64,000 bases of DNA from Candidatus Sulfopaludibacter sp. SbA3. GTDB taxonomy: Bacteria > Pseudomonadota > Alphaproteobacteria > Caulobacterales > Hyphomonadaceae. The notes under the pieces are model-generated. The model saw only the letters and a program-made list of their open reading frames with translations, was not told where the DNA came from and ran no database searches. Numbering within the stretch: position 1 is the first letter of the stretch; every line of letters begins with the position of its first letter. The position numbers and the translations under genes are program-made. This document shows positions 1,078 through 7,683 of the stretch, piece by piece. The DNA is taken from the NCBI GenBank assembly GCA_945913285.1, contig CAMEDD010000003.1:1-64000 (forward strand), in the 5' to 3' direction.

Positions 1078-2664
1078 ATGCAACACCCCCTCCAGCCGAT
1101 CGTGCCGGCGCCGCTGACCTATCAGCCCGAACGCACCCGGATCAATCTGTTCACGGCCCTGCGCCGCGCTGCGCGCGAGTTCGGGCAAGACAAAGCGATT
1201 CTCGTTGATGGCGATGAGCGCATCCTGACCTATAAAGAGATCATACGCGCGGCGTACGGCCTCGGCTCTGCCCTCAGAAAAGGCACCAAGCGCGGAGAAT
1301 CAGTTGGCGTCATGCTGCCCACAGGGGCGGGCGCCGTGATCGGGTTCTTTGCCCTCACCGCATACGGCCGCGTCCCGGCAATGCTGAATTTCACAGCCGG
1401 CTCGAAAAACCTCAAATCGGCCATGCGAGCGGCAAAGGTCAAACGCCTCATCACCGCGCACAAGTTCGTGGAGCTTGGTGGTCTGCAGGATCTGATCACC
1501 GAACTTTCGAAAGTGGCTGAGGTCATCTATCTGGACGACCTGCGTGAAAAGCTTAGCCTCGGGGACAAGCTGAGCGCGCTGGCCGGTCCGGCTGTGCCCA
1601 GCTTGATCGGTTCGCCGCTCCATCACAAGCAGCCCGGCGTCATCCTCTTCACCTCAGGCACGGAAGGCGAGCCCAAGGGCGTAGTGCTCAGCCACGAGAA
1701 CGTCATGACAAACGTGGAACAGGTCCGCGCGCATATCGGGCTTAGTCCGGACACGGACATTGTATTCAATCCGCTGCCCACCTTTCACTGTTTCGGATTG
1801 ACGGTTGGTGCGGTCCTGCCGCTCATCGGCGGAATCAAGGTGCTGTTCCACCCCTCGCCGTTGCAGCCAAAGGAGATCGTGCGGCGCATCCGCGAAAGCG
1901 GCGCGACCATCCTTCTGGCAACTGACACCTTTATCTCGCAATACGCCCGCACCGGCGCCGAGGGAGACCTCGACTCCATCCGCCTCGCCGTGTGCGGCGC
2001 CGAACGGGTGAAAGATGAAACGCGCGCCTATGTGCGCCGCAAGTTCAACATCGAAATCCTCGAAGGCTATGGCGCGACCGAAGCGTCACCGGTCGTCGCG
2101 GCAAATCAATGGGAAAACAACAGGCCCGGGACCGTTGGCCGTTTGCTGGCCTGCATGGAATCGAAGCTGGTTCCCGTCGAAGGCATGCCCGAGGGCGGGC
2201 GTTTGCATATCCGCGGTCCGAACATCATGATGGGGTACCTGCGCCCAACTAATCCGGGCGTCATCGAGCGCCTGTCGGATGGCTGGCACGACACGGGAGA
2301 TATCGTTGATATCGACGCCGATGGCTTCATTAAAATCCTCGGACGCGTGAAACGCTTCGCCAAGATCGGCGGTGAAATGGTGTCCCTCGCTGCCGTGGAA
2401 AATTGCGCGGCCGCCGTCTGGCCAGATCACATGCATGCCGCCGTGACCCTGCCGGACCCGAAGAAGGGCGAACAGGTCGTGCTGCTGAGCGAAGCCCCCG
2501 AAGCATCGCGCAGCCCGATCCTTGACTGGGCACAGACCAACGGCGTCCCGGAAATCTCCGTGCCGCGGCGCGTTTTCAAGGTCGGTCAAATTCCTGTGCT
2601 GGGCACCGGCAAGGTAGATTACAGCGCCGTGCGCAGCGAAGCCGAACGGCTGATGGCCGACTAG
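1078..2664 (+). CDS. AMP-forming acyl-CoA/acyl-ACP synthetase (Aas-like ligase domain)
   Basis: 528-residue adenylate-forming enzyme that activates a carboxylic acid, probably a fatty acid, with ATP and transfers it to CoA or ACP. The phosphate-binding loop FTSGTEGEPKG lies at residues 191-201, GYGATEAS is motif A5, and the C-terminus carries the hinge and the catalytic-lysine region (GTGK). The overall look resembles the ligase half of Aas (acyl-ACP synthetase) proteins, here without an acyltransferase or MFS domain. It converges on phaZ, and the two stop codons share one CTAG at 2661-2664. Beside a class II PHA synthase it could supply or recycle medium-chain acyl-CoA, but that role is inferred from position. 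CAGGG sits 8 bases before the ATG. Confidence 0.85.
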   Translation: MQHPLQPIVPAPLTYQPERTRINLFTALRRAAREFGQDKAILVDGDERILTYKEIIRAAYGLGSALRKGTKRGESVGVMLPTGAGAVIGFFALTAYGRVPAMLNFTAGSKNLKSAMRAAKVKRLITAHKFVELGGLQDLITELSKVAEVIYLDDLREKLSLGDKLSALAGPAVPSLIGSPLHHKQPGVILFTSGTEGEPKGVVLSHENVMTNVEQVRAHIGLSPDTDIVFNPLPTFHCFGLTVGAVLPLIGGIKVLFHPSPLQPKEIVRRIRESGATILLATDTFISQYARTGAEGDLDSIRLAVCGAERVKDETRAYVRRKFNIEILEGYGATEASPVVAANQWENNRPGTVGRLLACMESKLVPVEGMPEGGRLHIRGPNIMMGYLRPTNPGVIERLSDGWHDTGDIVDIDADGFIKILGRVKRFAKIGGEMVSLAAVENCAAAVWPDHMHAAVTLPDPKKGEQVVLLSEAPEASRSPILDWAQTNGVPEISVPRRVFKVGQIPVLGTGKVDYSAVRSEAERLMAD

Positions 2665-3491
2665 GCCGCCTTCGCGAGCGGCTCCTTCAGGAAGTCATTG
2701 ATCACGCCCGCCGTTTCGGCAGCGCGCGTTACCAGGAACAGGTGGCCGCCGCCTTCCACAACGTGCAGGCGCGCGTCGGGCAGTGCCCAGGTCAGGATCT
2801 GACCGTTCACGAGCGGGACGATGCTGTCCTTGTCACCCATCATCACCAGCGTCGGCATCTTGACGAAGCGGATGAATGGCAAGCTGGACCAGCCGGCAAA
2901 GGCGAGCAGCTGATAAAGATAGCCCTTCGGATCCGGCGGCAGCAGGTTTCCGATATGATTGTCCGCAGACGGATCGGCCATGTCGCCGTAGAGCGTCGCA
3001 AAGTTCTCACGCATGTATTCGGGATCAGTGTAGCGGCGCGTATCTACCATCTTGGACAACGATGCCGGCTGGCCCGGTATCATCGTCATGCCGGATGACG
3101 TGGCGCACAGGATCAGCTTGTTCACGCGGTTGCGGTACTGGAAGGCAAACTGCTGCGCGAGCGCGCCGCCCCAGGACACACCCATCACATCGACCGATTC
3201 AAAGCCAAGGCGATCGGCCAACTTGCGGGCCCAGCGGGCCGCCATCCAGTGCCGGTAGGGCCACTGCGTGACCGGGCTCAGGCCCACGCCGGGCACGTCG
3301 AACGTAAGGATCTCACGATCGGGGAACATGTCCCCCAGACCGAGGGTCAGCTCCAGGTTGGCACCGATGCCGTTGAAGAATACGAGCGGCAGCTCCCTGG
3401 CCGCGCCAGACACGGGCCAATAGGCCGTGCGCAGCATAACGCCGTCCAGATCCTGCATCGTCACTTCCGGCATACGGGTCGGTCTAGCCAT
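2661..3491 (-). CDS. phaZ: Intracellular poly(3-hydroxyalkanoate) depolymerase
   Basis: Alpha/beta-hydrolase of about 276 residues that releases 3-hydroxyacids from PHA granules. It follows Pseudomonas medium-chain PhaZ closely: FNGIGANLEL near residue 40, FDVPGVG near 66, the nucleophile elbow GVSWGGALAQQF with serine near 106, GDKDSIVPL carrying the acid, and a GGHLFL histidine near the end. No signal peptide is visible, which fits an intracellular enzyme. It starts 23 bases after phaC on the same strand, so a phaC-phaZ operon is likely, as in pseudomonads. A GTG three bases upstream (3494) and ATG at 3473 are alternative starts. Confidence 0.92.
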   Translation of the reverse strand: MARPTRMPEVTMQDLDGVMLRTAYWPVSGAARELPLVFFNGIGANLELTLGLGDMFPDREILTFDVPGVGLSPVTQWPYRHWMAARWARKLADRLGFESVDVMGVSWGGALAQQFAFQYRNRVNKLILCATSSGMTMIPGQPASLSKMVDTRRYTDPEYMRENFATLYGDMADPSADNHIGNLLPPDPKGYLYQLLAFAGWSSLPFIRFVKMPTLVMMGDKDSIVPLVNGQILTWALPDARLHVVEGGGHLFLVTRAAETAGVINDFLKEPLAKAA

Positions 3492-3514
3492 CACTCAGTG
3501 TCTTTCGTCTTTGT

Positions 3515-5203
3515 TCAGTCGTTGAATACGTAGCGGCCGGGCGCCGCATAAATGGGCGGGAAAGCGTCATTTCCAACCGTCTTCGGCGCAGGCTTCTGCG
3601 CCCCTGCCCGCTCTTTCAGCCAGCTGCCCCAGCGCGGCCACCAGGAACCGTTATGCTCTTCCGCGCCCGCCGCCCATTCATCCGGCGTCGGCTTGATCTG
3701 CGTGCTGCGGAAGTACTTCGCCTTCGGATTACCGGGAGGGTTGATCAAAGACTGCAAATGTCCGCTGGAGGAAAGCACGAACTCGACGTTCCTCGAGCCG
3801 AGCAGCGCCGGCGTCCGGTAACACGCTTTCCACGGCGTGATGTGGTCGGTGAGTCCCGCCACGACAAAGGCATCGGCCGTCACCTTACGCAGGTCGGCAA
3901 TATGCCCGGCGACTTCTACCGTACCCGGATGGTCGAAGGGCTGGTGCAGGGCAATGTCCAGATAGTCCGAATGCAGCTGAGCGGGCAGGTTCGTCGTATC
4001 GTTGTTCCAGAACAACACGTCATAGGGGGGCGGGTCTTCGCCCATCAGGTAGTTGTTGACGACGTAGTTCCAGATTAGATCGTTCGGACGCATCCAGGCA
4101 AAAATCCGGGCGAGGTCATCGCCCTTAAGAATGCCACGCGCCTTGGACATCTTGCGCGCAATCTCGAGACTGCCGTCCGAGACGATCTGCCCGACATCAC
4201 TGTCTTCCTTCTGCGGGTTCAGCACACATACCATGAAGGTCAGCGCGTTGATGCGCTTGTCTCCCGCGGCAGCCAGAAGGCTCGCAAATGTCGCCGTCGT
4301 AATGCCGCCCGAGCAGGCGCCGGAGACGTTGATCTTCGGAGACCTGGTGATTTTGCGGATGACTTCTGTCGCCTGTATCAGGCTGTCGATGTAAGCCGAA
4401 AGCCCCCAGCTGCGATGCTCCTTACGCGGATTGCGCCAGGAGATGACGAAGGTTTGCTGCTCCATCGCGAGGAGGAACTGAACCATCGACGTCATCGGCG
4501 TCAGGTCCATGGCGTAGAACTTGTTGATCTGTGGCGGGATGATCAGGATGGGTGTCTTGTAAACCCTCTCCGTCGTCGGGGCGTACTGGATCAGCTCCAG
4601 CATCTCGTTCTTCCAGACCACCGAGCCGTGCGAGACGGCGAGGTTCTCGCCCACTTTGAACGGGCGCTTGTCCACCTGCGACGGAAGCCCACCATTCTTG
4701 GTAAGGTCGTCGTACAGGTTCTTTATGCCCCTGAGCAGGGACAGGCCGCCGGAATCCACCACGCGTTTCGTCGCCGCCGGGTTTCCGATCAGCGTATTCG
4801 TCGGCGCCAGCGCGTCCGTGATCATGCCCATCACGAATTTCGCCCGGGCGTGCTCCAGCTCGCTCAACTTGATTTCGCTCACCCAGTCATGGAGGTGTTC
4901 CTGCGTTGCCAGGAAGGACTGCATGCCGCGCCGGTAGAATGGATTGTTCTCCCAGGCCGGATCCTTGAAGCGGCGATCCTTCTTGTCGGCCTCGCGCTTA
5001 GATTTCCTCATCAGGATCTGCGTATTCTCGGACACGATCTTGCGCGCGGCCCTGGCCGTGGTGACCGGGTTCGTCATGGACGAACGCAGCATCATCGTGA
5101 CGGCACCCAGCAATTCCTGCCGGTTAATGCCGCCCAGCAAGGGATTAAGGGCTGTGGTGCTTTGCGCCGCGTTTTGCGCAATCTCGTCTTTTGGTGTGCT
5201 CAT
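3515..5203 (-). CDS. phaC: Class II (medium-chain) PHA synthase
   Basis: Polymerises (R)-3-hydroxyacyl-CoA into polyester at the granule surface. From the ATG at 5203 it is 562 residues, the length of Pseudomonas PhaC1 (about 559). The ATG has a good Shine-Dalgarno (GGGAGGG) and an N-terminus that aligns with PhaC1. The lipase-like box is G-A-C-S-G with catalytic Cys297 (Cys296 in PhaC1), followed by the Asp in TDHITPW and the His in SSGHLQS. Long stretches such as APTNTL, PPQINKFY, WAWMRPNDLIWN-like and FWNNDT match class II enzymes rather than the class I enzymes more usual in alphaproteobacteria. It is divergent from phaD. An in-frame upstream ATG at 5239 lacks the ribosome-binding support. 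Confidence 0.95.
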   Translation of the reverse strand: MSTPKDEIAQNAAQSTTALNPLLGGINRQELLGAVTMMLRSSMTNPVTTARAARKIVSENTQILMRKSKREADKKDRRFKDPAWENNPFYRRGMQSFLATQEHLHDWVSEIKLSELEHARAKFVMGMITDALAPTNTLIGNPAATKRVVDSGGLSLLRGIKNLYDDLTKNGGLPSQVDKRPFKVGENLAVSHGSVVWKNEMLELIQYAPTTERVYKTPILIIPPQINKFYAMDLTPMTSMVQFLLAMEQQTFVISWRNPRKEHRSWGLSAYIDSLIQATEVIRKITRSPKINVSGACSGGITTATFASLLAAAGDKRINALTFMVCVLNPQKEDSDVGQIVSDGSLEIARKMSKARGILKGDDLARIFAWMRPNDLIWNYVVNNYLMGEDPPPYDVLFWNNDTTNLPAQLHSDYLDIALHQPFDHPGTVEVAGHIADLRKVTADAFVVAGLTDHITPWKACYRTPALLGSRNVEFVLSSSGHLQSLINPPGNPKAKYFRSTQIKPTPDEWAAGAEEHNGSWWPRWGSWLKERAGAQKPAPKTVGNDAFPPIYAAPGRYVFND

Positions 5204-5296
5204 TCTGCCCTCCCAAGCGGAGCCGGTCTCTCCTGGCAATGGTCCGCCAGACGTCGTCCTAAACCGGCTCTCTTGCCATCTCGCAAAAAGACCGTG

Positions 5297-5343
5297 GTAA
5301 ATTTACTCGTAAAATTCGTTTCACAGTCAGATTTAGCTGTCAA
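5297..5343 (-). promoter_or_regulatory. Candidate phaC promoter with overlapping PhaD operator
   Basis: In the 155-base phaC/phaD divergent gap the minus strand reads a perfect -35 TTGACA (5343-5338). Downstream of it lies a block of three alternating half-sites, GTAAA TTTAC TC GTAAA, at 5297-5313. These form a perfect 10-base palindrome (5297-5306) and a second inverted repeat (5302-5313). A TetR-type dimer bound here would cover the -10/start region of phaC. The -10 itself is poorly matched. The operator assignment is inference from layout and from the known PhaD role. Confidence 0.45.
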
Positions 5344-5358
5344 ACTGCCGAAGTGGCC

Positions 5359-5991
5359 ATGAAAACGCGCGACCGGATACTTGAAGTCAGCCTTCTTCTC
5401 TTCAACGAAGAGGGGGAAAGCGGGCTGTCGTCTGTCGATATCGCCAATGCGCTCGAGATCAGTCCGGGCAACCTTTACTACCATTTCAAGGGCAAGGACG
5501 CGATCATCCGCGCCCTCTACGACCGGTTTGACGAGGAACTGCGGGTGATCCTGCGCGGCTCCAAGGGCGGGGTCGCCTCCATCGAGGATAACTGGGTCTA
5601 TATCTACATCCTGCTCGAAGAGATCTACGACTTCCGCTTCTTCTACCGTGATATCGCCGGCCTTCTGGCGCGCTATCCTGATCTTGCCGTGCGGTTTCGC
5701 AGCCTCATCGCAGCCAAGCGAAACAACATCGCACAGATTATCGATGACCTGGAGCGGCCCGGACTGATCCGCGTGGACAAACGCCTGAAAAGTCCGTTGG
5801 CAGATCAGATCATCACCACGCTCACCTTCTGGCTTGCAGGCGATGCGCTCACCAAAGATGTCCATGACGGCCCTGCCCTCATCCACAAGACGGTTTTCCA
5901 GGTAATGTGCCTCATGGTGCCCTACACAGGCGAGGCTGCGCCGACAGTCCTCGGGCGGATGATCCGGCATTTCGAGGAAGCAAAGCAATAG
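5359..5991 (+). CDS. phaD: TetR-family regulator of PHA genes
   Basis: 210-residue TetR/AcrR protein. The N-terminal MKTRDRILE and the helix-turn-helix core ISPGNLYYHFKGK (about residues 31-43) are nearly identical to Pseudomonas PhaD. In Pseudomonas, PhaD activates the pha operons in response to an acyl-CoA-like ligand. The gene is divergent from phaC and convergent with the phasin, with a strong hairpin at the 3' end. The ATG at 5359 is preferred because it yields the family N-terminus; a GTG two codons upstream (5353) is possible. Whether it activates or represses here cannot be read from the sequence, though the dyads in the gap overlap the phaC promoter side. Confidence 0.88.
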   Translation: MKTRDRILEVSLLLFNEEGESGLSSVDIANALEISPGNLYYHFKGKDAIIRALYDRFDEELRVILRGSKGGVASIEDNWVYIYILLEEIYDFRFFYRDIAGLLARYPDLAVRFRSLIAAKRNNIAQIIDDLERPGLIRVDKRLKSPLADQIITTLTFWLAGDALTKDVHDGPALIHKTVFQVMCLMVPYTGEAAPTVLGRMIRHFEEAKQ

Positions 5992-6014
5992 GGCGCGAGA
6001 CGATCGCGCCCTAT
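5988..6014. terminator. Bidirectional hairpin between phaD and phasin
   Basis: A perfect 11-base inverted repeat, ATAGGGCGCGA and TCGCGCCCTAT, flanks a GACGA loop and begins at the phaD stop codon. It ends nine bases before the phasin stop on the other strand. The stem is GC-rich. The tails are only weakly T-rich (CGACTTTATC on plus, TGCTTTGC on minus), so it may stop transcription with help or protect 3' ends. Confidence 0.65.
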
Positions 6015-6022
6015 CGACTTTA

Positions 6023-6835
6023 TCAGACGGCGGCCTTCGCCAGTTTCGACCAGGCTGCCTTGGCAACGCGCCCGCGCCCGGTCACTCTGGCGTCCAATGC
6101 TTCAAGCTCGGCTTTCTTCAGCGCAGCAAGCTGCGAAAATCGCGTCAGGCCTTGAGCGTTGAGCTTCTTGGCAAGCGCCGGACCGATGCCCGGAACTTGC
6201 GTCAGGTCGTCGGCTCCTTCGGACGCGGCGAACGCGGCCTTCACGGCTTTTGTCGTTTTGCGGGCGGCCTTCTTGGCGGTTTTCGCGACTTCCGAACCGG
6301 TTTCGCCGGCAACGGCTTCGATCTCTGCGGAGAGACGCGCGATCCGCGATTTCAGGTCTGCATCCGCAACTTTTGCACGGGCTTTCGACGTAACCGAGGC
6401 CACTTCATCTTCCAGCTTGTCGATCTGGCGGGCGAAGGTTTCGCGCACCGAGCCGAGGCCTTTAACCCCAACCAGACCGCGCATCCGCTCGAGGCGGGCC
6501 TCGAACTGGTCACGGGCCTGCGCCTGCAGATCACGGACCTGCTCGATGGTCTTCGAGACCTGCTTGGAAGCGCCCGCAACACGCTCATTGCCAGCAAGGC
6601 GCGAGCGCACGTCGCTCTCGATCTCAGCGCCGCGTTTCACGAGGTCTTCGAAAATATCGGCCGATTGCTTGTTCAGCACATTGGCGCCGGCAAGAGCGGT
6701 ATCATAGGCTTTGCCGTAGGCGCCGACGCCTGCAAGCCAGATCTTGTGGGCGGTTTCAGCCGATTGGGCTTCGACTTGCTGGCCGACCGCTGCAGCTTTG
6801 GCACGCGTTTTGGATTTCACCGGTTTCTTCGCCAT
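6023..6835 (-). CDS. PhaF/PhaI-type phasin fused to a helix-hairpin-helix domain
   Basis: 270 residues from the ATG at 6835 (GGAG upstream). Residues about 20-75 carry the granule-binding phasin signature, including KIWLAGVGAY and FEDLVKRGAEIE, as in Pseudomonas PhaI/PhaF. Residues 85-180 are heptad-rich and probably coiled coil. A lysine/alanine-rich stretch (about 184-201) recalls the histone-like tail of PhaF. Residues 210-268 form a helix-hairpin-helix-like domain (VPGIGPALAKKL). Known PhaF coats granules and binds DNA through AAKP repeats to share granules at division; an HhH domain could serve the same end here. That function is inference. It is convergent with phaD and divergent from the hydrolase at 6982. 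Confidence 0.88.
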   Translation of the reverse strand: MAKKPVKSKTRAKAAAVGQQVEAQSAETAHKIWLAGVGAYGKAYDTALAGANVLNKQSADIFEDLVKRGAEIESDVRSRLAGNERVAGASKQVSKTIEQVRDLQAQARDQFEARLERMRGLVGVKGLGSVRETFARQIDKLEDEVASVTSKARAKVADADLKSRIARLSAEIEAVAGETGSEVAKTAKKAARKTTKAVKAAFAASEGADDLTQVPGIGPALAKKLNAQGLTRFSQLAALKKAELEALDARVTGRGRVAKAAWSKLAKAAV

Positions 6836-6981
6836 GGGAGGCTCCTTTTCCAGGTAAGCTGAGTTGATGGCGCCCGGTTTAGGGAAAAAGTCTAGAAAGC
6901 GCATACTAATCGCGGTTGGCCTTGAACTGCGGGTGCTTTGCGCTCTATCGACACCGAAAGAACGCATCAGAGGAGCAGATT

Positions 6982-7683
6982 ATGAGCGCAGTGGATTATC
7001 AGATCGACGGCCAGACCTATGAAGGCTGGTTCGTTAAGCCTGCCGGTTCGTCAAGCCTGCCGGTCGTGGTCATTGCACATGCCTGGGGCGGCCTCAGCGC
7101 AAACGAAAAACAGAAGGCGCAGATCGTTGCAGACGAATTCGGTTACGCCGCTTTCGCGATTGACGTTTACGGCAAAGGCAAACGCGGCACGACGCAGGCC
7201 GAAAATGAAGGCCTGATGTACCCGCTCGTCGGCAACCGTGCCGAATTGCAGAAGCGCCTTGCCGGGGGACTTGCCGCCGCCAAAGCCCAGCCCGGCGTCG
7301 ACGCCTCGAAAACCGCAGCGATCGGCTTCTGCTTTGGCGGTCTTTGCGTCCTGGACATGGCGCGCGCCGGCCAAGACGTGCTCGGCGTTGCCTCCTTCCA
7401 CGGACTTTTCCGCCCGGCCGAAAACATCCCCGCGCCGAAGATCAAAGCCAAGGTGTTGATCGAACATGGCTGGAACGACCCGATGGCGAAACCGGACGAT
7501 GTGCTCGCCATCGCCAGGGAGTTTGCAGGCGCCGACTGGCAATTGCACGCACACGGAAAGGCTGTGCATTCGTTCACCACGCTCGAAGCGAACGCTCCGG
7601 AAGCCGGATCGGCGTATGATGCCGACGCAGACCGACGCAGCTTTGCTTATCTGAAGACGTTCCTCGCCGAACTGCTTGGCTGA
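6982..7683 (+). CDS. Dienelactone hydrolase family protein
   Basis: 233-residue alpha/beta-hydrolase with a cysteine nucleophile, the family that opens dienelactones in chloroaromatic breakdown but also includes general esterases. The triad is visible as Cys117 in GFCFGG, Asp166 in HGWNDP and His196 in AVHSF. The ATG at 6982 has AGGAG six bases upstream; an in-frame upstream start at 6916 has no such support and would overlap the phasin promoter region. No aromatic-degradation genes flank it, so the true substrate is unknown. Confidence 0.85.
   Translation: MSAVDYQIDGQTYEGWFVKPAGSSSLPVVVIAHAWGGLSANEKQKAQIVADEFGYAAFAIDVYGKGKRGTTQAENEGLMYPLVGNRAELQKRLAGGLAAAKAQPGVDASKTAAIGFCFGGLCVLDMARAGQDVLGVASFHGLFRPAENIPAPKIKAKVLIEHGWNDPMAKPDDVLAIAREFAGADWQLHAHGKAVHSFTTLEANAPEAGSAYDADADRRSFAYLKTFLAELLG

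Follow-up and report, generated by a model that had tools for sequence, protein, structure and literature searches.

A probably native class II-like polyhydroxyalkanoate locus in Hyphomonas with a predicted PhaD operator upstream of its phasin gene

The window analyzed here, a stretch of 64,000 nucleotides at the start of contig C3 (CAMEDD010000003.1) of a 98-contig, 3.02 Mb draft genome labeled Candidatus Sulfopaludibacter sp. SbA3, carries a polyhydroxyalkanoate (PHA) gene cluster encoding a synthase (PhaC), a depolymerase (PhaZ), a TetR-family regulator (PhaD) and a phasin. The host belongs to Hyphomonas: the closest named loci (90-92% PhaC identity) are those of Hyphomonas metagenome-assembled genomes (MAGs) and of one Acidobacteria-labeled MAG with the same gene order. 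We found that the cluster is probably a native, vertically kept alphaproteobacterial locus for PHA synthesis and recycling, distantly related to the phaC-Z-D-phasin cluster of Pseudomonas. Gene identities, their conservation, the phylogeny of the synthase and a box upstream of the phasin gene can be read from the sequences themselves. The strongest new evidence is regulatory, namely the sharing of this box with Pseudomonas-type genomes, and the shared box and the separate alphaproteobacterial clade of the synthase are the parts that a specialist would not have expected.

Within the cluster, phaZ lies on the same strand as phaC, 20 bp downstream of it, while phaD is divergent from phaC and convergent with the phasin gene (Table 1). 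An earlier note made from the sequence had reported these four genes with their coordinates, lengths, arrangement and catalytic Cys297, and re-examination of the open reading frames (ORFs) reproduced all of these. In the working that we propose, PhaC would convert (R)-3-hydroxyacyl-CoA into polymer granules and PhaZ would depolymerize them, while the phasin would coat the granules and may tether them to DNA by its basic linker and helix-hairpin-helix (HHH) end. PhaD would sense a fatty-acid metabolite and turn on the phasin gene by binding a TTAGTATGCG-type box upstream of it. We infer the enzyme activities, the binding by PhaD, the direction of control and the tethering of granules in this scheme.

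Phylogenetic position and spread of the synthase locus

The named loci used for comparison are the best 80 of at least 591 GTDB contig stretches encoding a relative, and come from Hyphomonas, Henriciella, Robiginitomaculum, Caulobacter-like, Kordiimonas, Parvibaculum/Tepidicaulis, Marinicaulis and Erythrobacter/Sphingomonas/Novosphingobium lineages. We use "Pseudomonas-type" for genomes of family code f45, a label that rests on class II model scores of more than 1,000 bits for their synthases, on the order phaC-phaZ-phaC-TetR in 8 of 10 loci and on the placement of the Pseudomonas mandelii synthase (L141) among the f45 rows in the tree. Residue counts refer to 93 alphaproteobacterial rows (91 distinct sequences). 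The first PhaC tree was built from 76 of 122 sequences, thinned by hand after the removal of a few truncated or near-identical loci, and the second from 45 rows; in both trees, as in the residue counts, class I is represented by 6 rows. The "core alpha" group was defined after the first tree, with the alphaproteobacterial synthases L045, L055 and L142 falling outside it.

Both trees separated the class II-like set from class I (support 100/99 with 76 rows, 100/100 with 45 rows). The core alpha rows formed one clade (100/99 in both trees) and the Pseudomonas-type rows a separate one (100/100 and 100/99, respectively), which in the free 45-row tree was nearer to beta/rhizobial rows (93/93) than to the core alpha clade. 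When PhaC was constrained to group with the 6 class I rows, the tree was 31 log units worse and was rejected by the approximately unbiased (AU) test (p-AU 0.009), and constraining the Hyphomonas PhaC with Pseudomonas was 100 log units worse and likewise rejected (p-AU 1.6e-48). Joining core alpha and Pseudomonas as one clade was neither shown nor rejected (p 0.23). By these trees, PhaC belongs to the class II-like supergroup, in an alphaproteobacterial clade of its own and outside class I. The phylogeny that the earlier note had proposed as a check thus bore out a position outside class I, though not one with Pseudomonas.

The catalytic features of the two enzymes are conserved. The PhaC nucleophile, C297, lies in GACSGG, and this Cys is kept in all rows considered (93/93 alphaproteobacterial, 14/14 Pseudomonas-type, 9/9 other class II-like and 6/6 class I). 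An AlphaFold2 model of PhaC (predicted local distance difference test score, pLDDT, 80.7) has the PhaC fold, with PhaC 5xav as its best PDB match (Z 49.3, 365 residues); a second model, built with named-locus rows only (pLDDT 77.4), has the same fold and the same helix at 408-420. In PhaZ, the catalytic Ser (GVSWGG), Asp (GDKDS) and His (GGGHLF) are kept in an alignment with 3 Pseudomonas-type PhaZ. The earlier note had described PhaC and PhaZ as looking like pseudomonad proteins, and as a description this is accurate: PhaC is 45-47% identical to 3 Pseudomonas-type PhaC and PhaZ 42-45% identical to the PhaZ of Pseudomonas-type loci. Yet neither reaches the curated cut-off of its pseudomonad-type family. 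For PhaC the scores are 691.5 bits on PHA_synth_II (TIGR01839; cut-off 855.4) and 498.1 bits on PHA_synth_I (TIGR01838; cut-off 622.65), and the best model for PhaZ, PHA_depoly_arom (TIGR02240), gives 225.5 bits (cut-off 250.6; next model 94). That PhaC lies under both class cut-offs and PhaZ under its own counts against our reading. The term "class II PhaC" used by the earlier note can be kept insofar as it sets the enzyme apart from class I, and has to be given up in its strict Pseudomonas sense, the curated cut-off being missed and two pocket positions differing.

It is very improbable that PhaC is merely a divergent class I synthase whose class II score is compositional. The enzyme does still score 498.1 bits on the class I model, and 6 rows sample class I thinly in the trees. 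However, its class II score is 193 bits better, and this genome's own class I synthase (C3:85163-86683) shows the opposite pattern, with 650.8 bits on the class I model, above the cut-off, against 386.3 on the class II model. This second PhaC belongs to the PhaC family and has the same catalytic residues as the window PhaC, to which it is 32% identical. We regard a divergent class I enzyme as ruled out by the AU test and the model scores.

The locus appears to be native to a resident lineage rather than a recent import, given its presence in nearly the whole genus and its ordinary codon use. The class II model finds a match at E <1e-190 in 35 of the 37 genomes of the genus, the window's own included (the exceptions being G001, 84% complete, and G024, 99% complete), and in 12 of 24 other genomes of the order. 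In a sample of the class, 12 of 385 genomes pass 1e-160 on this model, again including the window's own, and two score 548-557. In a sample of 398 genomes of the phylum, the 13 genomes above the curated class II cut-off are all of family f45, while 15 genomes of the window's class score 601-692 bits, with none between 472 and 601; the cut-off itself is passed by none of the 61 genus and order relatives and none of the 385 genomes of the class. In third-position GC content (GC3) and codon use, none of the six genes departs by more than about 1.3 standard deviations from 33 other ORFs in the window, so that the comparison with flanking genes suggested in the earlier note found the genes to resemble their surroundings.

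A recent horizontal transfer of a Pseudomonas medium-chain-length (mcl) PHA cluster into Hyphomonas would account for the pseudomonad look of the genes, for the 45-47% PhaC identity and for the shared phasin box motif. It is nevertheless extremely improbable and in our view ruled out by the separate supported clades, the AU test, the spread through the genus and half of the other genomes of the order, and the native codon use. The earlier note had left a choice between transfer and an unexplored alphaproteobacterial lineage of PHA genes; recent transfer has to be discarded, and the lineage stands, with its own PhaC clade, genus-wide presence and native codon use. An ancient exchange between Pseudomonas and the alphaproteobacterial clade, in either direction, may still have occurred, being compatible with the p of 0.23 for a joint clade. 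A PhaD tree was useless for the direction of such an exchange, with outgroup end branches of 7.9-10. An excerpt of PMC5944434 raises the possibility that Pseudomonas phaC1 derives from an alphaproteobacterial phaC, and one of PMC9676036 gives counts of PHA synthases in Erythrobacteraceae, Sphingomonadaceae and Caulobacteraceae. A search of open-licence literature found no paper on this alphaproteobacterial PhaC clade or on PhaD outside Pseudomonas, which is weak evidence of absence.

PhaD, the phasin and a shared upstream box

The window regulator has a TetR domain (PF13972, 92.9 bits; cut-off 25) and is 34-38% identical to the TetR protein encoded next to phaC or phaZ in 13 Pseudomonas-type loci (119-140 bits), the matches being nearly full length except for L044, which is cut by its end. 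Conversely, a Pseudomonas-type PhaD searched against the genome, in this one direction, matched the window regulator with 128.3 bits over residues 1-199 of 204, the next match scoring 30.1, and the motif SPGNLYYHF is identical in 4 aligned Pseudomonas-type rows. The identification of the regulator as a PhaD relative is thereby upheld. In 77 of the 80 named loci, phaZ comes after phaC, on the same strand and at most about 400 bp away; in the other 3 the distance is 1.8-2.5 kb. A phaD gene is present in 47, upstream and divergent as in the window in 30 and downstream and collinear in 17; it was not found in the examined stretch of the other 33, which are mostly Sphingomonadales by title and include some short contigs.

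The phasin, whose start was chosen by the AAGGAG before position 6835, passes PF05597 (36.3 bits; cut-off 28.8) and falls short of PHA_granule_1 (TIGR01837, 34.2 bits; cut-off 94.7). Its C-terminus, after a Lys/Ala-rich linker, matches the HHH domain PF14520 (28.0 bits; cut-off 27). PhaF has a histone-like C-terminal tail; the window phasin has no such tail and carries the HHH domain in its place, which might replace the DNA-binding PhaF tail in sorting granules with the nucleoid. The label "PhaF/PhaI phasin" of the earlier note was thus right as to the phasin and loose as to the subtype.

Alignment of the phasin upstream regions of 12 Hyphomonas/Robiginitomaculum loci revealed an invariant TAGTATGCG followed, 3-4 bases on, by an invariant TTCTA. 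The genome contains a single exact copy of the 17-mer TTAGTATGCGNTTTCTA, located 57 bp ahead of the phasin ATG, and two further sites at 3 mismatches, as against 8 sites at up to 3 mismatches for its reversed control; the looser YTAGNNNGNNNTTTCTA has one copy, at the same site, and so does its reversed control. The motif is also present upstream of phaI in Pseudomonas-type genomes, exactly in two of them, and in a motif-free alignment of 8 phaI upstream regions (of 10 Pseudomonas-type loci) the longest invariant run was TTCTAATTTT, inside a CTAGTATGTGATTTCTAATTTTT-like sequence.

A matrix built from the 8 phaI sites alone was then scanned over the alphaproteobacterial loci, all 80 of which are covered by our box tables. 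Sites scoring at least 15 occurred in 36 of the 47 loci with phaD and 3 of the 33 without it, and sites scoring at least 18 in 33 and 1, respectively (Fisher p = 1e-9 for the association with phaD at score 15). Among 300 column-permuted matrices, which on average found sites in 9.5 of the 80 loci at 15 and in 1.7 at 18, none reached the observed totals. As for the three phaD-less loci at 15 or above, one (L110) has a proper box on a short contig, and the other two have their sites inside phaC; among the 36 phaD loci with a site, L068 (15.0) has it off the expected place. We infer that the box is the PhaD operator, in Pseudomonas itself as in the alphaproteobacterial loci. Passages of the reviews PMC9049629 and PMC7204398 state that P. 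putida PhaD binds and activates the phaC1 and phaI promoters.

The box could instead be a core promoter element or the site of another regulator, its association with phaD reflecting common descent of the loci. Such an origin would fit the relatedness of the loci, which makes the association non-independent, and the conserved place of the box near the phasin start; it would also fit the PhaD-like TetR genes that stand beside phasins with no site above 12 in the examined stretches (L204-L207), and the class II locus of the P. mandelii plasmid L141, with no phaD in the annotated stretch and no site above 11. We consider it unlikely. TetR operators are often imperfect palindromes, and the box is an imperfect palindrome; it occurs in two classes, and at score 18 it is absent from 32 of the 33 phaC-phaZ loci without phaD.

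Several further observations weigh against the proposed reading of the locus. Given that the loci are related, the Fisher p overstates the association, which is not independent; moreover, the score-15 threshold was set after a scan with a 16-site matrix had been seen, an upstream position of the sites was not required, and 11 of the 47 phaD loci have no site at this score. In the phaC/phaD gap of the window no PhaD box was found (best score -1.0), which leaves a direct action of PhaD on phaC in Hyphomonas unproven. In Pseudomonas-type genomes, 10/10 loci have a related site at 4-5 mismatches upstream of the first phaC, but such sites also occur inside genes, and in a motif-free alignment of the phaC1 upstream regions the box was not among the four best blocks. 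PhaD-like TetR proteins at E 1e-25 occur in 70 of the 398 phylum genomes and are not confined to such loci. Finally, neither PhaJ nor PhaG was found in the cluster; the genome has four MaoC-type matches above the Pfam cut-off, all outside the cluster.

The idea that PhaD marks class II loci alone was ruled out by the same count of phylum genomes, in some of which the regulator stands beside a phasin without a box. In four loci from the phylum outside the window's class (L204, L205, L206 and L207), a PhaD-like TetR gene (204-209 bits on a PhaD profile) lies by a phasin-like gene. PhaD together with a strong box was seen only in Pseudomonas-type and core alpha loci, despite the grouping of the Pseudomonas PhaC elsewhere. 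The eleven loci inspected (10 collinear ones and L110) have ORFs between box and phaC, many of them phasin-like by eye; of three compared with PF05597, that of L091 passes (34.3 bits) and those of L088 (21.7) and L113 (20.6) do not. The tail of the L088 ORF has a histone-like HC2 match as weak as its PF05597 match. Two Kordiimonas-like loci have a second PhaD-type site (L088:12001 and L101:11934, scoring 20.1 and 30.2 with a 16-site matrix) upstream of a wax ester synthase/diacylglycerol acyltransferase (DGAT) gene, with 215 bits on PF03007 in L088; the L101 gene is cut by the contig end and is alike by its first residues. One regulator may link PHA and wax-ester/triacylglycerol (TAG) storage in these loci.

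Monomer range of the polymer

The earlier note had taken the substrate to be medium chain. This is not supported as stated: according to an excerpt of PMC4636328, the PhaC2 of Cupriavidus pinatubonensis, class II by phylogeny, makes short-chain polymer only, accepting 3-hydroxybutyryl-CoA (3HB-CoA) and not 3-hydroxyoctanoyl-CoA (3HO-CoA). We consider a medium-chain or mixed polymer moderately likely, and a broad or medium-chain range somewhat more probable than a restriction to short chains. On the medium-chain side are the class II-like tree position, the TIGR02240-type PhaZ, the presence of PhaD, the Gln at the Q481 position (93/93 alphaproteobacterial rows, as against Ala in 6/6 class I rows) and Leu at position 484 in most alphaproteobacterial rows (83/93). 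The window itself has Ile there (I487, by mapping), as do 10/93 of these rows.

At the position of Tyr412 the window has Ala418, where Pseudomonas-type rows have Phe (14/14) and class I rows Tyr (6/6). The 93 alphaproteobacterial rows are divided between Tyr (43), Phe (34), Gly (9), Ser (4) and Ala (3), the 16 with a small residue including Hyphomonas and its nearest relatives. An excerpt of PMC5509742 places this residue in the active-site channel, gives Phe for class II and notes that the class difference needs experiments; we predict that a small residue here would widen the channel. Asp at the E130 position does not discriminate, since 12 of the 14 Pseudomonas-type rows also have it.

The alternative, a synthase of class II appearance that produces short-chain PHA only and doubles the genome's class I synthase under other control, overlaps our preferred reading in everything except the monomer, and we see it as a real if lesser possibility. 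It draws on the Cupriavidus PhaC2, which according to the same excerpt of PMC4636328 has Ile at 484, where Leu is commonest in class II, as the window does. It also draws on Cys at the S325 position in 73/93 alphaproteobacterial rows (Ser in 14/14 Pseudomonas-type rows): according to an excerpt of PMC3815930, class II synthases engineered at S325 and Q481 accept lactyl-CoA, and according to one of PMC6403647 mutations most often lower mcl and raise short-chain-length (scl) polymer. Against it stand the closeness of PhaZ to the TIGR02240 family, the Leu484 of most alphaproteobacterial rows and the Ala at the Tyr412 position.

Neighboring features and comparison with known systems

The features of the region are collected in Table 1. 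In the phaC/phaD gap, an inverted repeat, GTTTGA-N16-TGRAAC, is exact in 39 of 42 hyphomonad gaps, a count in which some genomes appear twice, under two labels. It was rejected as the mark of a regulon: the genome has one exact copy and 16 sites at up to 1 mismatch, as against 8 for a reversed control. It may be a promoter or another regulator's site. The ligase gene beside phaZ (PRK06814, 657 bits over residues 13-525; cut-off 1349) adjoins phaZ in 4 of the 80 named loci, all close Hyphomonas relatives, and its case as a core part of the system is weak. The dienelactone-hydrolase-family gene adjoins the phasin gene in 7 of the 80, in close Hyphomonas relatives only, and is probably outside the system. 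The Acidobacteria-labeled MAG mentioned above (L061, LNFC01000014.1, "Acidobacteria bacterium Ga0077551") contains the whole Hyphomonas locus in the same order with a PhaC 92% identical to that of the window, and is very likely mislabeled or a mixed bin. An identical 28-mer lies within 100 bases of one end of four contigs of the host genome (C3:99515 at the end; C62:64, C77:58 and C79:58 at the starts), so that a repeated element may break its assembly.

Table 1. Features of the PHA locus and its neighbors (positions in the window)
Feature	Position	Strand	Remarks
AMP-forming acyl ligase, stand-alone relative of the Aas-type ligase part	1078..2664	+	PRK06814; weak locus association
phaZ-like intracellular PHA depolymerase (alpha/beta hydrolase, 277 aa)	2661..3494	-	GTG start, or directly following ATG
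phaC, class II-like PHA synthase, 562 aa	3515..5203	-	C297, D453, H482; Ala418 and Ile487 at two pocket positions
Inverted repeat GTTTGA-N16-TGRAAC, phaC/phaD divergent gap	5318..5345	-	Candidate promoter or second operator
phaD, TetR-family regulator, 210 aa	5359..5991	+	PhaD homology
Phasin, 270 aa, Lys/Ala-rich linker, helix-hairpin-helix C-terminus	6023..6835	-	HHH ~6095-6211; PF05597, PF14520
Predicted PhaD box TTAGTATGCGCTTTCTAG	6892..6909	-	56 bp before phasin ATG
Dienelactone-hydrolase-family protein, divergent neighbor of phasin	6982..7683	+	PF01738, 125.5 bits

An excerpt of PMC6403647 calls class II synthases widely distributed, but Pseudomonas and Halomonas are the genera that it names. 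A separate clade comprising Hyphomonas, Caulobacter-like, Kordiimonas, Parvibaculum and Erythrobacter/Sphingomonas members would extend the set of organisms and enzymes available for the polymer. Since both curated cut-offs are missed, annotation pipelines could call such genes "alpha/beta fold hydrolase", a label that records of Pukyongiella, Bradyrhizobium and Caballeronia do bear. With a PhaD box predicted, the regulation can be tested directly, and the natural replacement series at one pocket position (Tyr/Phe to Ala/Gly/Ser) could be used to probe what determines monomer length. A bolder reading, which we put forward only tentatively and think somewhat unlikely, is that the PhaD regulon is an ancient circuit and operator common to Pseudomonas and several alphaproteobacterial orders, with the pseudomonad mcl-PHA cluster as one late branch; the Hyphomonadaceae synthase, having lost the channel aromatic (Tyr/Phe to Ala/Gly/Ser), would take longer or bulkier hydroxyacyl-CoAs than characterized class II enzymes, and the Kordiimonas-like regulator would also control the wax-ester/triacylglycerol synthase.

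Among known and newly compared systems, the PhaC2 of Cupriavidus pinatubonensis JMP134 (PMC4636328) and the Paraburkholderia/Bradyrhizobium/Caballeronia-type loci L143, L144 and L186 resemble the window in having a single class II-like synthase, and the latter three also in having phaZ downstream of it. These three differ in carrying a MaoC hydratase and a fatty acyl-CoA ligase, in having no phaD annotated beside them and in lacking a site of 15 or more; in the Pukyongiella locus L142 a single weak site (15.2) lies close to another TetR gene. Class II-like synthases that lie beside phaZ and are themselves annotated only as "alpha/beta fold hydrolase" were seen on plasmids of Pukyongiella, Bradyrhizobium, Tsukamurella, Phyllobacterium and Caballeronia (L142, L144, L147, L148 and L186, respectively). 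A MaoC hydratase adjoins 4 of these 5 plasmid synthases, and the Phyllobacterium stretch has an acetoacetate-CoA ligase instead. In L204, L206 and L207 a TetR gene is convergent with a phasin-like gene (150.7 bits on PF05597 in L206), as in the window, but no class II-like PhaC was found by the model in these genomes (best 432-455 bits) and no box in the examined stretches; the TetR/phasin pair therefore seems older and wider than class II clusters.

The closest parallel is the phaC1-Z-C2-D/phaIF cluster of P. putida. Both bring together a synthase, a depolymerase, the TetR regulator PhaD and a phasin, with phaZ following phaC, and the motif ahead of the phasin gene recurs in Pseudomonas-type genomes. 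In contrast to that cluster, the window has a single synthase gene in place of two flanking phaZ, a phaD divergent from phaC, a phasin with an HHH end where PhaF has its tail, and a PhaC of a separate clade, 45-47% identical. In curated scores, gene order and pocket residue the window thus departs from a strict Pseudomonas cluster, while by its genes and box it would work like one.

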